Positions 4,262-11,179 of a stretch of DNA of 11,319 nucleotides are shown here, piece by piece. The notes under the pieces are model-generated. The model did not search any database, was not told the origin of the DNA, and worked only from the letters and a program-made list of their open reading frames with translations. Both the position numbers and the translations under genes were made by a program. The stretch lies in contig DLCS01000093.1 of the NCBI GenBank assembly GCA_002480735.1, positions 6,512 to 17,830 of the forward strand. Reading direction: 5' to 3'. The stretch comes from Bacillaceae bacterium UBA7792. Lineage in GTDB: Bacteria > Bacillota > Bacilli > Bacillales > Cytobacillaceae. Numbering within the stretch: position 1 is the first letter of the stretch; each line of letters starts with the position of its first letter.

Positions 4262-4307
4262 ATGAATAGAGAAGAGTTTTTATGCACGGTGCGTCGTTTC
4301 TATTCAT
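4262..4307. repeat. Inverted repeat with nested hairpin upstream of yueI
   Basis: ATGAATAGA (4262-4270) and TCTATTCAT (4299-4307) are perfect 9-bp arms 28 nt apart. One G·U and one A-T pair can extend them inward. Inside lies a small hairpin, GCAC-G-GTGC (4284-4292). The element ends 35 nt before the yueI start. It may be a leader RNA structure or a regulator site, and no T run follows it, so it is not a terminator. Confidence 0.5.
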
Positions 4308-4342
4308 ACATAATAATAGCCTGATAGTGAGGGGGAAAAGAA

Positions 4343-4792
4343 ATGACAAAACCCAATGTGGAGGATTATCTTCAGCAGGGCATCTATGGTCAAAAGGAAA
4401 TCAACCCTGATGAGAGAAGAAAATTTTTAGGAACGTTGCGTGAAAGAATTGTTATTGCACTCACACAAGGACAGGTCATGCAAGAAGGAATTTTTCAAGA
4501 GGTCGAGGATGCTCTTAAAGTCAATCAAGGAGCCAAATTATTATTAAACGGAAATATCGATTATTCCTATTTATCAAAATACACCAAATTAAGCAATCAA
4601 TATAATGTTGAATATACGATTGTGACCAACAAAGAGCATAATACTGACATCGGTTTAGTTCTTGCCTATGATCATGCTGTCGATAAAGAAGAGATTTACA
4701 TTACCCAAAAGAAAATAGAAAACGAAGAAAGCAAGGGAACACCTAAAAAAGGAGTATTCTCCCTTTTTTCAAATATCTTTAAGAATAAATAA
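4343..4792 (+). CDS. yueI: YueI-family protein (DUF1694)
   Basis: This 149-residue cytosolic protein of unknown function is recognised by its DUF1694 pattern. Residues 8-43 region reads DYLQQGIYG (7-15), then PDERRKFLGTLRERIVIALTQGQVM, which closely follows Bacillus subtilis YueI (about 132 aa). Next come LLLNGNIDYSYLSKYTKLSNQYNVEYTIV and GLVLAYDHAVDKEEIYI. The last 25 or so residues are a Lys/Ser-rich tail longer than in YueI. It has no signal peptide or membrane segment. The start at ATG 4343 follows GAGGGGG (4329-4335). The gene is monocistronic by layout: a terminator lies upstream and a repeat array plus the gatC promoter downstream. The fold suggests a nucleotide- or RNA-binding-type small domain, but that is only a guess and no reaction is assigned. 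Confidence 0.88.
   Translation: MTKPNVEDYLQQGIYGQKEINPDERRKFLGTLRERIVIALTQGQVMQEGIFQEVEDALKVNQGAKLLLNGNIDYSYLSKYTKLSNQYNVEYTIVTNKEHNTDIGLVLAYDHAVDKEEIYITQKKIENEESKGTPKKGVFSLFSNIFKNK
4745..4769 (+). terminator. Terminator-like hairpin inside the 3' end of yueI
   Basis: A6-GGAG (4745-4754), loop TATT, then CTCC (4759-4762), a bulged C and T6 (4764-4769) form a terminator-shaped stem. It ends 23 nt before the yueI stop codon and encodes part of the Lys-rich tail. The GC core is only 4 bp, so it may be coincidental. Confidence 0.3.
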
Positions 4793-4806
4793 GATGTAAT
4801 GAGTTT

Positions 4807-4849
4807 ATGAGGACAAGACCTAGGGGAATGCGCCCGAACTTGTCGTCAT
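4807..4849 (+). repeat. Palindromic unit 1
   Basis: Arms are ATGAGGACAAG and CTTGTCGTCAT with a G·G mismatch at the fifth pair; T4806 and A4850 extend the outer end. The centre contains CCTAGGGG and CGCCCG and diverges from units 2 and 3, sharing CTAG and CCCGA with unit 4. Confidence 0.9.
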
Positions 4850-4858
4850 AGCGGTTGA

Positions 4859-4901
4859 ATGAGGACAAGATCAGGAGGAAATCACCGGAACTTGTCGTCA
4901 T
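4859..4901 (+). repeat. Palindromic unit 2
   Basis: It has the same arms and G·G mismatch as unit 1. The centre carries GATC and AGGAGG (4873-4878), a Shine-Dalgarno-like hexamer. It is identical to unit 3 except for one C/T change in CACCGG versus CACTGG. Confidence 0.9.
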
Positions 4902-4910
4902 AGCCGCCGA

Positions 4911-4953
4911 ATGAGGACAAGATCAGGAGGAAATCACTGGAACTTGTCGTCAT
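4911..4953 (+). repeat. Palindromic unit 3
   Basis: It is a near-perfect copy of unit 2 (42 of 43 positions), including AGGAGG at 4925-4930 and the conserved G·G arm mismatch. This suggests recent duplication or gene-conversion-like homogenisation of units 2 and 3. Confidence 0.9.
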
Positions 4954-4963
4954 AGCCCCCCGA

Positions 4964-5006
4964 ATGAGGACAAGATCTAGAGTAACCCACCCGATCTTGT
5001 CCTCAT
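4964..5006 (+). repeat. Palindromic unit 4 (perfect 14-bp stem)
   Basis: ATGAGGACAAGATC (4964-4977) and GATCTTGTCCTCAT (4993-5006) are perfectly complementary around a 15-nt centre, so this unit lacks the G·G mismatch of the other three. It is the distal copy, nearest gatC. Confidence 0.92.
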
Positions 5007-5049
5007 AACAATTACATGAGTAATTCATGTCAAAGAGCCCTGCTCTCTA

Positions 5050-5079
5050 TTGCTTTATTGCGGTAAATTTTGTTATTAT
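5050..5079 (+). promoter_or_regulatory. Candidate sigma-A promoter of gatCAB
   Basis: An extended -10, TG-T-TATTAT (TG 5071-5072, hexamer 5074-5079), is paired with TTGCTT (5050-5055) at 18-nt spacing. It leaves a leader of about 35 nt before gatC and lies after the repeat array, so the operon need not depend on yueI transcription. Confidence 0.55.
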
Positions 5080-5122
5080 CAAGTTATTGTTTAGGTCTTA
5101 AATTTAAGTGGAGGTGATAGAG

Positions 5123-5413
5123 ATGTCAAGGATTACAGCGGAACAGGTTAAGCATGTTGCCCACTTGGCAAGACTGGCGGTGACAGAGGAGGATGTGCAG
5201 AAATTTACGCAACAGCTCGATGCCATCATTACCTATGCAGAGCAGCTTAATGAACTCGATACAGAACATGTGGAACCGACTTCACATGTATTAAATATGA
5301 AGAATGTGATGAGAGAAGATATTCAATCAGAAGGACTTCCACGTGAAGAGGTTCTGAAAAATGCACCTGAACACGAGAATGGACAAATTAAGGTGCCATC
5401 GATTATAGAGTAA
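5123..5413 (+). CDS. gatC: Asp-tRNA(Asn)/Glu-tRNA(Gln) amidotransferase subunit C
   Basis: GatC is the small scaffold subunit of the GatCAB complex, which converts Glu-tRNA(Gln) and, where needed, Asp-tRNA(Asn) to the amidated forms. It wraps around GatA and stabilises the GatA-GatB contact. The 96-residue protein starts [20 protein letters not shown] and has the typical [25 protein letters not shown] segment (around 35-60). The tail [21 protein letters not shown] is also typical. I chose ATG 5123 over GTG 5108 because AGTGGAGGTGAT is an almost ideal ribosome site covering that GTG, and the resulting length matches B. subtilis GatC. The stop TAA is part of the next gene's Shine-Dalgarno (TAAGGAGG). 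It is first in the gatC-gatA-gatB operon. Confidence 0.96.
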
Positions 5414-5425
5414 GGAGGGGGAAGC

Positions 5426-6883
5426 ATGGGTTTATTTGATCAGAAGCTAAGCACTCTTCATGAGTCATTACATAATAAAGAAATTTCTGTCTCGGATCTT
5501 GTGGATGAGTCTTATAAAAGAATCGGACAGGTTGATGATAAGGTTCAGGCATTCCTAACGTTAAACGAAGAGAAGGCACGCCTCAAAGCAAAAGACCTTG
5601 ACGACAAGCTCGGTACGAATGAATCAAAGGGTCTTTTATTTGGAATGCCAATTGGAATTAAGGACAATATCGTTACGAAAGGGTTGCGCACGACTTGTGC
5701 CAGCAAGATTCTTGAAAACTTTGATCCTATTTATGATGCAACAGTTATGCACAGGCTTGAGGAAGCGGAAGCCATTACGATTGGAAAGTTGAATATGGAT
5801 GAGTTTGCAATGGGCTCTTCAACGGAAAATTCCAGCTTTCAATTAACAAGAAATCCTTGGAATCTCGAAACCGTACCAGGTGGTTCTTCGGGTGGTTCAG
5901 CAGCGGCGGTTGCTGCGGGGGAAGTACCATTTTCCTTAGGGTCAGATACCGGTGGCTCCATTCGTCAGCCCGCATCATTCTGTGGTGTCGTTGGCCTGAA
6001 GCCTACATATGGACGAGTTTCCCGATACGGATTAGTGGCATTTGCCTCTTCTCTTGATCAAATCGGGCCAATTACAAGAACAGTGGAGGATAATGCCTAT
6101 CTCCTTCAAGCAATTTCAGGTGTTGATCCAATGGATTCAACCTCTGCCAATGTTGATGTGCCTAATTTTGTGCGATCCTTAACAGGTGATGTTAAGGGAC
6201 TCAAAATTGCCGTACCGAAGGAATACCTTGGTGAAGGGGTAAATGAAGAGGTTAAGCAATCGGTCATGAATGCCCTTCAAACTTTAGAAAAGCTAGGTGC
6301 AACATGGGAGGAAGTATCGCTTCCTCATTCTAAATATGCATTAGCCACTTATTATCTACTATCTTCCTCAGAGGCTTCTGCCAATCTAGCACGCTTTGAT
6401 GGGGTACGATACGGCTATCGTTCACCAAATGCAGAAACTTTGATGGAACTATATAAAAATACAAGAGCAGAGGGCTTTGGTGAAGAGGTTAAAAGAAGAA
6501 TCATGCTCGGAACCTTCGCGCTTAGCTCGGGGTACTATGATGCTTATTATAAGAAGGCACAAAAGGTGCGTACGTTAATTAAGCAAGATTTTGAAAAAAT
6601 ATTTGAATCATACGATGTTATTGTTGGACCAACGACCCCAACACCAGCTTTTAAAATCGGTGAAAATATTGCTGACCCAATGACGATGTACTTAAACGAT
6701 ATACTCACGATCCCAGTGAACCTGGCGGGAGTACCAGGAATCTCCGTTCCTTGTGGATTATCAAATGGTCTGCCTCTTGGTCTGCAAATCATTGGAAAGC
6801 ATTTTGATGAAAGTACCGTTTACCGAGTTGCCCATGCGTTTGAGCAGGCGACTGATTTTCATAAACAAAAACCACAATTGTAA
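5426..6883 (+). CDS. gatA: Asp-tRNA(Asn)/Glu-tRNA(Gln) amidotransferase subunit A
   Basis: GatA is the glutaminase subunit of GatCAB; it releases ammonia from glutamine, which is channelled to GatB. It belongs to the amidase signature family and is 485 residues, the usual length. The Ser-cisSer-Lys triad is visible: Lys79 in MPIGIKDN, Ser154 in the [10 protein letters not shown] motif and Ser178 in [12 protein letters not shown]. The [19 protein letters not shown] region follows. The C-terminal [18 protein letters not shown] and [11 protein letters not shown] are standard. The start ATG 5426 lies 12 nt after gatC with AAGGAGGGGG directly upstream, so the two are translated in close series. 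Nothing is missing or unusual. Confidence 0.98.
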
Positions 6884-10184: not shown

Positions 10185-10727
10185 AGCGATCAGGTTCTGA
10201 TTAAGAAAATACTAGACGGAAACGATCATGCCTTTAGGCTGCTCGTTGAGAAATATCGTACGGAATTGTTTCGAACCATCTTTGCTGTCCTAAGGAATCA
10301 AAAGGATGCCGAAGACGCTACACAAGAAGTCTTTTTGAAGATCTATCATTCTCTCCCCCAATATGAGAATCAAGGCTTCAAAACATGGATGAAAAGAATT
10401 GCAGTTAATCACGCCATTGATATTAAGCGAAAGCAAGCGAGACGCAGAGAGGAAGTGGTTGAAGGGCTCGAATATGATGCCCTTACCTCCACTCGAGACC
10501 ATGTCGAATCCGAGGTAATTAGCATGGAGAGGCGGCGTCTTGTAAGAGAACGACTGGAGGAGCTTCCGGATAACTATCGAGGAGTCGTCTATGACTTCTA
10601 TATAGAAGAGAAGAGCTATCAGCAGATGGCAGAGGAACAGCAGGTACAGGTGAAGACCATTGAAACGAAGCTGTACCGGGCAAGGCATTGGATGAAAAAG
10701 CATTGGAAGGAGGACGATTTTTCATGA
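10182..10727 (+). CDS. ECF-type RNA polymerase sigma factor
   Basis: This 181-residue ECF (group IV) sigma factor directs RNA polymerase to stress-type promoters. Region 2 spans about 10-95: LDGNDHAFRLLVEKYRTELF, DAEDATQEVFLKIY (core binding) and FKTWMKRIAVNHAIDIKRK (-10 recognition). A charged linker follows, then region 4 (LEELPDNYRGVVYDFYIEEKSYQQMAEE and VKTIETKLYRARHWMKK, a helix-turn-helix for the -35). I place the start at ATT 10182. The first ordinary start codon, TTG 10266, would remove 28 residues of region 2.1 and has no ribosome site, whereas ATT follows a strong one. The stop overlaps the anti-sigma ATG (ATGA), giving translational coupling. It runs divergently from plsY. The subfamily is not identified; a YlaC- or SigV/W-like member is possible. 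The start is the only uncertain part. Confidence 0.9.
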   Translation: MSDQVLIKKILDGNDHAFRLLVEKYRTELFRTIFAVLRNQKDAEDATQEVFLKIYHSLPQYENQGFKTWMKRIAVNHAIDIKRKQARRREEVVEGLEYDALTSTRDHVESEVISMERRRLVRERLEELPDNYRGVVYDFYIEEKSYQQMAEEQQVQVKTIETKLYRARHWMKKHWKEDDFS

Positions 10728-11179
10728 ATCATGTTTCCTACGAGGAATGGGTCAAGTACGTGAACAATGAAATAAATGACAATGTCCGTGAGGTGTATGA
10801 TGATCATTTATACAGCTGCGACCAATGTTTGGAGCTTTATCTACAAGCCGTGACCGAGCTTGAATCCTCGTTGCCGGTTCTTTCAAACGCAGACGACTTT
10901 ACCAACCTGGTGATGGCAGACGTTTCACAAGTGAAAAAGAAATTGCCTGAAAAACAAGCACCGTTTTATCAAAGGACGAGTTTTCATTATATAGTGGCTG
11001 CAGCAATGACACTACTTTTTATGACATCCGGTGTTTTTCAATCGATTACGAAATATGCGGGTGCTGTGGAAACACCGAGCATTGATGAAAGCCCGCCTTC
11101 TATGACGGAAGAGATAATGAATAAAACGTTTGCGTGGATCGATACATTCGAGATTAAAAATAGGGAGGCGAACAAGTAA
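10724..11179 (+). CDS. Anti-sigma factor with zf-HC2-type zinc motif and one membrane segment
   Basis: The 151-residue protein is predicted to hold the preceding sigma factor at the membrane until a signal releases it. The cytosolic N-terminus has the ZAS/zf-HC2 motif His28-x3-Cys32-x2-Cys35 (DDHLYSCDQC), which normally binds zinc. One membrane helix lies at about 87-107 (FHYIVAAAMTLLFMTSGVFQS). The C-terminal 45 residues (ETPSIDESPPSMTEEIMNKTF...) should face outside. The ATG at 10724 overlaps the sigma stop and follows AAGGAGG (10707-10713); the in-frame TTG 10688 lies inside sigma and has no ribosome site. The stop overlaps the next start (TAATG). The pair forms a typical sigma/anti-sigma module. 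The extracytoplasmic signal is unknown. Confidence 0.9.
   Translation: MNHVSYEEWVKYVNNEINDNVREVYDDHLYSCDQCLELYLQAVTELESSLPVLSNADDFTNLVMADVSQVKKKLPEKQAPFYQRTSFHYIVAAAMTLLFMTSGVFQSITKYAGAVETPSIDESPPSMTEEIMNKTFAWIDTFEIKNREANK

Follow-up and report, generated by a model that had tools for sequence, protein, structure and literature searches.

What is the regular array of palindromes that follows a gene of Bacillaceae bacterium UBA7792, and what has given all its units nearly the same length? The window, i.e. the whole stretch of DNA that was analysed, is 11,319 nt long, and the array lies at 4807-5006, between a DUF1694 gene which is presumably yueI and a gene read as gatC.

4343..4792, plus strand: upstream gene, DUF1694 (Pfam PF07997), with its stop codon 14 nt ahead of the array
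4805..5008, no strand: whole array, period 52/52/53, outer ends TTATGAGG / CCTCATAA
4807..4849, plus strand: unit 1, imperfect palindrome of 43 nt, arms ATGAGGACAAG / CTTGTCGTCAT with a single G:G mismatch
4850..4858, no strand: spacer between the arms of units 1 and 2, 9 nt, second possible hairpin register
4859..4901, plus strand: unit 2, arms as unit 1, one base apart from unit 3
4902..4910, no strand: spacer between units 2 and 3, 9 nt
4911..4953, plus strand: unit 3, 43 nt, right arm CTTGTCGTCAT
4954..4963, no strand: spacer between units 3 and 4, 10 nt
4964..5006, plus strand: unit 4, perfect 14-bp arms ATGAGGACAAGATC / GATCTTGTCCTCAT
5108..5413, plus strand: downstream gene, read as gatC, relatives found by tblastn

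The left arm ATGAGGACAAG is common to all four units. As their right arm, units 1-3 have CTTGTCGTCAT and unit 4 has CTTGTCCTCAT. The G:G mismatch sits in the middle of the arm in units 1-3, and unit 4 alone is perfect over 14 bp. The spacers read AGC....GA, and since the arms pair across them as well, two hairpin registers are possible. The two ends of the array, TTATGAGG and CCTCATAA, are inverted repeats of each other on the scale of the whole array. TRF gave the array a score of 251 (3.8 copies, period 52, 85% matches). When the window was shuffled 200 times with its dinucleotides preserved, the score never exceeded 55 and periods of at least 30 did not occur. The preliminary description, with its four equal 43-nt palindromes, constant spacers and near-identical middle units, is thus borne out far above chance. 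It had also noted the lack of T tracts and of coding potential, and we found no ORF of at least 60 aa overlapping the array and just one terminator-like site in 4300-5500, at 5034-5046, outside the array. No T run follows the hairpins, which rules out that the units are intrinsic terminators. The regular, palindrome-bearing units resemble a CRISPR, but here it is the whole unit that repeats (85% matches) and there are no unique spacers; no Cas protein was seen among the six window proteins scanned.

In three relatives of the same genus (L203, L204 and L210) the yueI-gatC spacer is short, lacks an array and, judged by eye, contains a terminator, and in L205-L207 gatC was not found beside yueI within the stretch examined. 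No terminator was found between the DUF1694 gene and the array of the window; positions 4793-4806 lack the yueI terminator of L203, L204 and L210, and the array sits there instead. This position, directly after yueI and at the place of the relatives' terminator, would suit an RNA element, i.e. tandem hairpins in the 3' UTR with a role in transcript stability, termination or protein binding, as would the strong predicted folding of 4795-5050 (z = -7.85, with none of 200 shuffles equally stable). Against this explanation, the array has no T tract, and Rfam returned nothing at gathering score, so that a known RNA family was ruled out; the five sub-threshold matches, to miRNA and snoRNA models, are all far below their gathering scores and look like chance. 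The array-free spacer of the three relatives also fits a non-autonomous mobile element with palindromic ends, of which a putative transposase or recombinase would insert adjacent copies at a step set by the enzyme. A clean target-site duplication or an empty site could not be shown, which speaks against it. The array has no match in the plasmid and phage collections, and an origin from either was dropped.

The array was suggested from the start to belong to a dispersed family, and this was confirmed by further copies in the own genome and in relatives. The own genome is a draft of 296 contigs, 82% complete, and contains at least seven arrays of the window's kind, the window's included. The further ones, on contigs C9, C70, C99, C150, C202 and C218, have about 2-6 units each with steps of mostly exactly 52 nt. 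Their arms vary as ATG[A/G/C][C/G]GACA ... TGTC[G/C/T]TCAT, and the middles of the units differ between arrays. A stretch of N (L004 1611-1865) directly adjoins the C218 array.

A strict pattern of the inter-unit palindrome, run across 84,980 species, gave nine places where our own estimate of the chance expectation is about four, and the one place of the nine that was inspected, in Neobacillus muris, is an array. The strict pattern is a poor probe, and the covariance model, built from 37 units of four genomes, was therefore used instead. At E <= 0.01 it matches 85 of the 193 genomes of the family, the four source genomes included, many of them with just one or two weak matches. In an order-wide draw of 397 genomes 14 match at E <= 0.001: three belong to the own family, nine to genus g35 of a second family, and two further families have one each. 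A single match, which may be due to chance, is all that four of these 14 have. All five loci fetched from the second family (L268-L272) were confirmed by TRF as 51-52 nt arrays. The carrier G116 is Neobacillus muris (stretch L044 is identical letter for letter within the G116 locus L048), and its loci L053/L055 contain a run of 21 arm words, with 19 of the 20 steps exactly 52 nt. Arrays or units were repeatedly seen at contig ends (L113, L114, L115, L135 in G182, L044/L048 in G116 and L270 in G310). They seem to break draft assemblies, which implies that the copy numbers are underestimated.

TRF also revealed, near the fetched arrays, arrays of 52-nt period with a sequence seemingly unlike that of the window (L123 6929, L124 1398 and L132 4326). 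When similarity was tested the first two stayed separate, and the third joined the window's family by single linkage. To see which periods the family has, 1.6 Mb in total were sampled at round coordinates from eight genomes, six of them chosen among the model-matching ones and two (G001 and G011) without matches, and all tandem arrays with units of 18-120 nt were counted, coding repeats included. Units of 51-53 nt make up 28 of the 84 arrays (19 at 52, five at 51 and four at 53) and 21-nt units another 20, with at most seven arrays at every other length. The 51-53 class is present in seven of the eight genomes, G001 among them, and G011 has none; nor was there any such array in 0.4 Mb from four genomes of four other families of the order. 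Examples of the 21-nt class are L149 3815-4130, L167, L168, L170 and L180 (all samples of G114), and L280-L283.

Forty-six consensus units, from 44 arrays with a 52-nt consensus and two later ones, were compared ungapped, circularly and on both strands, with single linkage at 31 of 52 identical positions, the maximum of 1500 shuffled comparisons being 30. They fall into 16 families, the window's with 29 members, two with two members each, and 13 singletons. The families could still have a common ancestor and be too diverged for an ungapped test. Over a set of 44 arrays we counted 1295 substitutions and 38 indel events (33 of +-1 and five of +-2), a count restricted to arrays with a 52-nt consensus and biased downwards by that selection and by the penalty on gaps. 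In several cases indels of opposite sign occur within one array. Edge units carry 6.0 mismatches as compared to 4.8 in the interior, and faster decay at the edges was dropped as too weak to use. Paired neighbouring arrays with different consensus were observed at L132 3875-4678, L165 2204-3121, L175 10888-11544, L311 1207-1568, L312 1469-2046 and L316 1046-1672. Overlapping fetches doubled three arrays (L123 3988 = L148 16887, L123 6929 = L148 19828, and L121 = L154). The doubles were removed for the indel count, the family clustering, and the terminator count and 57-array palindrome test given below; they are still within the sets of 62 arrays (palindrome score) and 60 arrays (gene context).

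Unlike sequences are also found at one and the same place. In 16 species of genus g35 we compared the spacer between two orthologous genes, read as agmatinase (speB) and ywiB. In G530 this spacer contains 20.6 GAGGACA-type units, and seven species have 3-12 units of a 52-nt type B, with a sequence unrelated to the GAGGACA type. Four species have the motif AATCCCGTCA at steps of 21 nt or small multiples of it (one of 62), and four have no array. The array of G310 has its far edge outside the examined locus. With up to three mismatches allowed, type B was found in seven of the 16 g35 genomes, those with the slot arrays, and in none of the other nine, and the reversed control gave nothing; in G567, G360 and G336 it is present at several loci per genome among the matches listed. 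Columns 11-13 of the 21-nt motif change little and the last eight vary. The units were located by their first ten columns, whose constancy is therefore of little value as evidence, and the four species are related by descent. That different families occupy one slot suggests that the particular arm sequence is unimportant to the neighbouring genes. The filling of one slot by different families, and the restriction of type B to some species, are also what a mobile element would give if its arms and its enzyme co-evolve into species-specific families, by the logic of REP/REPIN but with another enzyme.

Differing sequences that share a length of about 52 bp suggest that the cell measures DNA length and not one sequence. 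The helical repeat of B-DNA is 10.4 bp per turn. A unit of 52 bp is then five turns and one of 21 bp two, which would place half-sites on one face of the helix and allow cooperative binding along the array. The explanation that we prefer, and to which we give a little less than an even chance, is that the period-locked, mostly palindromic arrays work at the level of double-stranded DNA, as putative protein half-sites phased to helical turns and spread as a satellite. Each arm would serve as one half-site, recognised by a protein or an assembly of proteins, which could bridge, wrap or insulate the DNA between transcription units. Copies would spread between loci and grow by unequal recombination or slippage, and arrays would be kept only if in phase. 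The conserved arms imply that something reads them, and the conserved length that the helical phase matters. A single sequence-specific protein would hardly account for the many unlike arms within one genome. It also counts against the phased half-sites that phase alone would predict classes of 31-32, 42 and 63 bp to be equally common, whereas in the sample only 21 and 52 stand out, and that most of the sampled genomes had been selected as carriers. In a wider form, which we put forward tentatively and hold to be less likely than not, the arrays would constitute a bacterial satellitome set by a measured length (52 or 21 bp), which a cellular machine or selection on helical phase would maintain, its sequence turning over completely between sister species in the same spacers and largely outside transcription units.

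A palindrome that no more than three of 60 shuffles reach is present in 39 of the 57 distinct arrays with units of 51-53 nt, and in the set of 62 arrays with units of 50-54 nt, which includes two apparent coding repeats, the mean inverted-repeat score is 8.0 vs 4.9. In 17 rows of unit-52 arrays without the window's arm words (16 distinct, one array being doubled) the pairing is strongest 4-8 and 12-13 nt away from the dyad and drops at 10; in the units of the window the mismatch is found at position 9. The window's type has a dyad loop of about 9 nt, others have one of 11 and type B, by eye, one of about 3, which implies that total length is better conserved than the position of the arms. Covariation in the 37-unit alignment is modest: 86.5% of the cells pair as compared to 84.3% when shuffled (reached by 7 of 500), and of the 500 shuffles 5 reach the covariation score and 3 the number of cells with changes on both sides, but 203 reach the pairs changed on both sides and 317 the further pair types. 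We give this result no weight.

The remaining 18 of the 57 arrays have no palindrome beyond shuffles, and this, like the inconstant loop, weakens the half-site model. It is in better agreement with a neutral satellite without function, in which replication or repair duplicates DNA by 52 or 21 bp at a time and the copies are spread and homogenised by gene conversion. The location in spacers and the likeness of units within an array, including the nearly identical middle units of the window, would also be expected from such a process. However, we know of no process that sets a 52 bp step, and the arms evolve nearly three times slower than the rest of the unit. In 21 arrays with window-type arm words, at least three copies and a dyad score of at least 7/9, arm positions differ from the array consensus at 125 of 2916 (4.3%) and other positions at 654 of 5377 (12.2%), with the arms slower in 19 of the 21 (Wilcoxon p = 3e-5). 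Arm positions 5-7 and 12 from the dyad have less than 1.6% substitutions, and the triplet ATG adjoining the spacer is almost invariant in window-type arrays. We therefore regard a purely neutral origin as improbable. That the arms are better kept than the centres had been claimed from the window alone; it fits a putative protein-binding array, which the preliminary description gave as an alternative.

The arrays are mainly found between genes. Among 60 arrays of period 51-53, three overlap an ORF call, five are at the edge of the locus and 52 are intergenic, with gene neighbours taken from simple longest-ORF calling and some of them uncertain. Of the intergenic arrays 30 have tandem, 15 convergent and seven divergent neighbours; the background, drawn solely from the eight sampled genomes, consists of 481, 93 and 165 other spacers of 100 nt or longer in these three arrangements. 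With two double counts removed, convergent spacers are enriched for arrays (15/50 vs 93/739, p = 0.002). The shortage in divergent spacers (7/50 vs 165/739) is not significant with p = 0.22, and depletion between divergent genes was dropped. A terminator-like hairpin precedes the array in 25 of 59 cases where it faces the 3' end of a gene and in three of 43 where it faces a 5' end, as compared to 4.2% of shuffles, in a count that left out segments longer than 500 nt. In 28 arrays with tandem gene neighbours, the mismatched arm pairs of the sense strand are G.U in 89 and A.C in 110 cases; there is no excess of G.U and no sign of selection on an RNA hairpin. Taken together, the convergent enrichment, the terminators before arrays and the lack of a G.U bias point to DNA and not RNA. 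Nor would hairpins need an exact unit length. On the other hand, no terminator was found before the array in 34 of the 59 cases facing 3' ends, and with the window's array only 14 nt past a stop codon and no terminator between, some arrays may be transcribed. We consider an RNA element very unlikely, and the repeat RNA that had been proposed earlier is not supported.

A RAYT-like transposase had also been suggested and was looked for. The known REP enzyme, RAYT, is related to IS200/IS605 and has the domain Y1_Tnp. A profile search with PF01797 at E <= 0.001 in 9 and 27 genomes gave no match in the model-matching genomes G061, G063, G181 and G185, each of them 99-100% complete; the arrays of G061 and G063 were those checked by TRF. 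Conversely, G201, G203 and G196 have Y1_Tnp and their samples no 51-53 nt arrays. Y1_Tnp genes are present in most of the other carriers examined, and a role for them in some lineages is possible. Beside the Y1_Tnp loci, some of which are ordinary IS200-like genes, there was no window-type unit (0/20) and no 51-53 nt tandem array (0/24). A RAYT-driven REP is thereby ruled out as a requirement, and the mobile element, with all that the variable slot and the array-free yueI-gatC spacer offer it, appears unlikely to us.

The label REP-like, which the array was also given, holds loosely. REP, BIME and REPIN sequences are intergenic imperfect palindromes of 20-60 bp, clustered and in many copies, and this is true of the arrays here too. 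The flanking RAYT and the orientation of units do not agree: neighbouring units of REP/BIME alternate, whereas those here are head-to-tail with a 52-nt step (orientation was read from the asymmetric centre and the spacer, the arms being nearly symmetric). A fixed step of 52 bp over many sequence families, with no Y1_Tnp beside the units where examined, also sets them apart. STAR of Staphylococcus, BOX of Streptococcus and MIRU of Mycobacterium are short modules that form arrays between genes, differ in copy number and have a separate sequence for each kind. The arrays here are like these, going by such general descriptions, and add one step across families; to our knowledge no common step is known across unrelated families of the STAR, BOX or MIRU kind. 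Eukaryotic satellite DNA is known for homogenised arrays, rapid replacement of families and a favoured length, the nucleosome step. The arrays may be likened to it by analogy, but they are small, lie between bacterial genes and have no nucleosomes.

CGTC-tagged REPs are palindromic and have no known dedicated transposase (PMC3733652). They are described with an unpaired terminal CGTC tag, stems of 8-9 bp and loops of 4-5 bp, with negligible head-to-tail pairs and rare clusters, and Bacillota (Firmicutes) is not among the five phyla named for them (PMC3733652). The arrays share with this description the palindromes and a CGTC motif in the arms. They differ from it in that the CGTC of the window's units is inside an 11-bp stem with a loop of 21 or 9 nt, depending on the register, and they do not fit this definition.

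The window's array is apparently a small member of an undescribed 52-bp tandem repeat class of Bacillus relatives. Among the papers listed in searches of the open PMC library, none has a title or abstract opening on 52-bp arrays in Bacillaceae, and an older description is possible. A bacterial intergenic repeat family is usually given an explanation of its own, with a separate sequence and, at most, a separate transposase. Sixteen unjoined families with one unit length, and a slot whose content varies, separate length from sequence, and this makes the retention of palindromic intergenic repeats a testable question. If the satellitome reading holds, the intergenic DNA of these bacteria would be organised in a chromatin-like way, through the reading of length. 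The arrays could also serve as typing loci.

Ten g35 species have a Y1_Tnp gene about 69-76 kb from ywiB, with about 50-58 bits to PF01797 and a RAYT-like length (for instance G310:C23:226529, G282:C80:93534, G247:C38:129672, G511:C1:4030965 and G567:C12:292666), which is perhaps a vertically kept, domesticated copy. At the far end of the window, 10266-11179 encodes a sigma-70 family factor with regions 2 and 4 (Pfam), and it is overlapped by a 163-aa ORF without Pfam match, possibly its anti-sigma factor.
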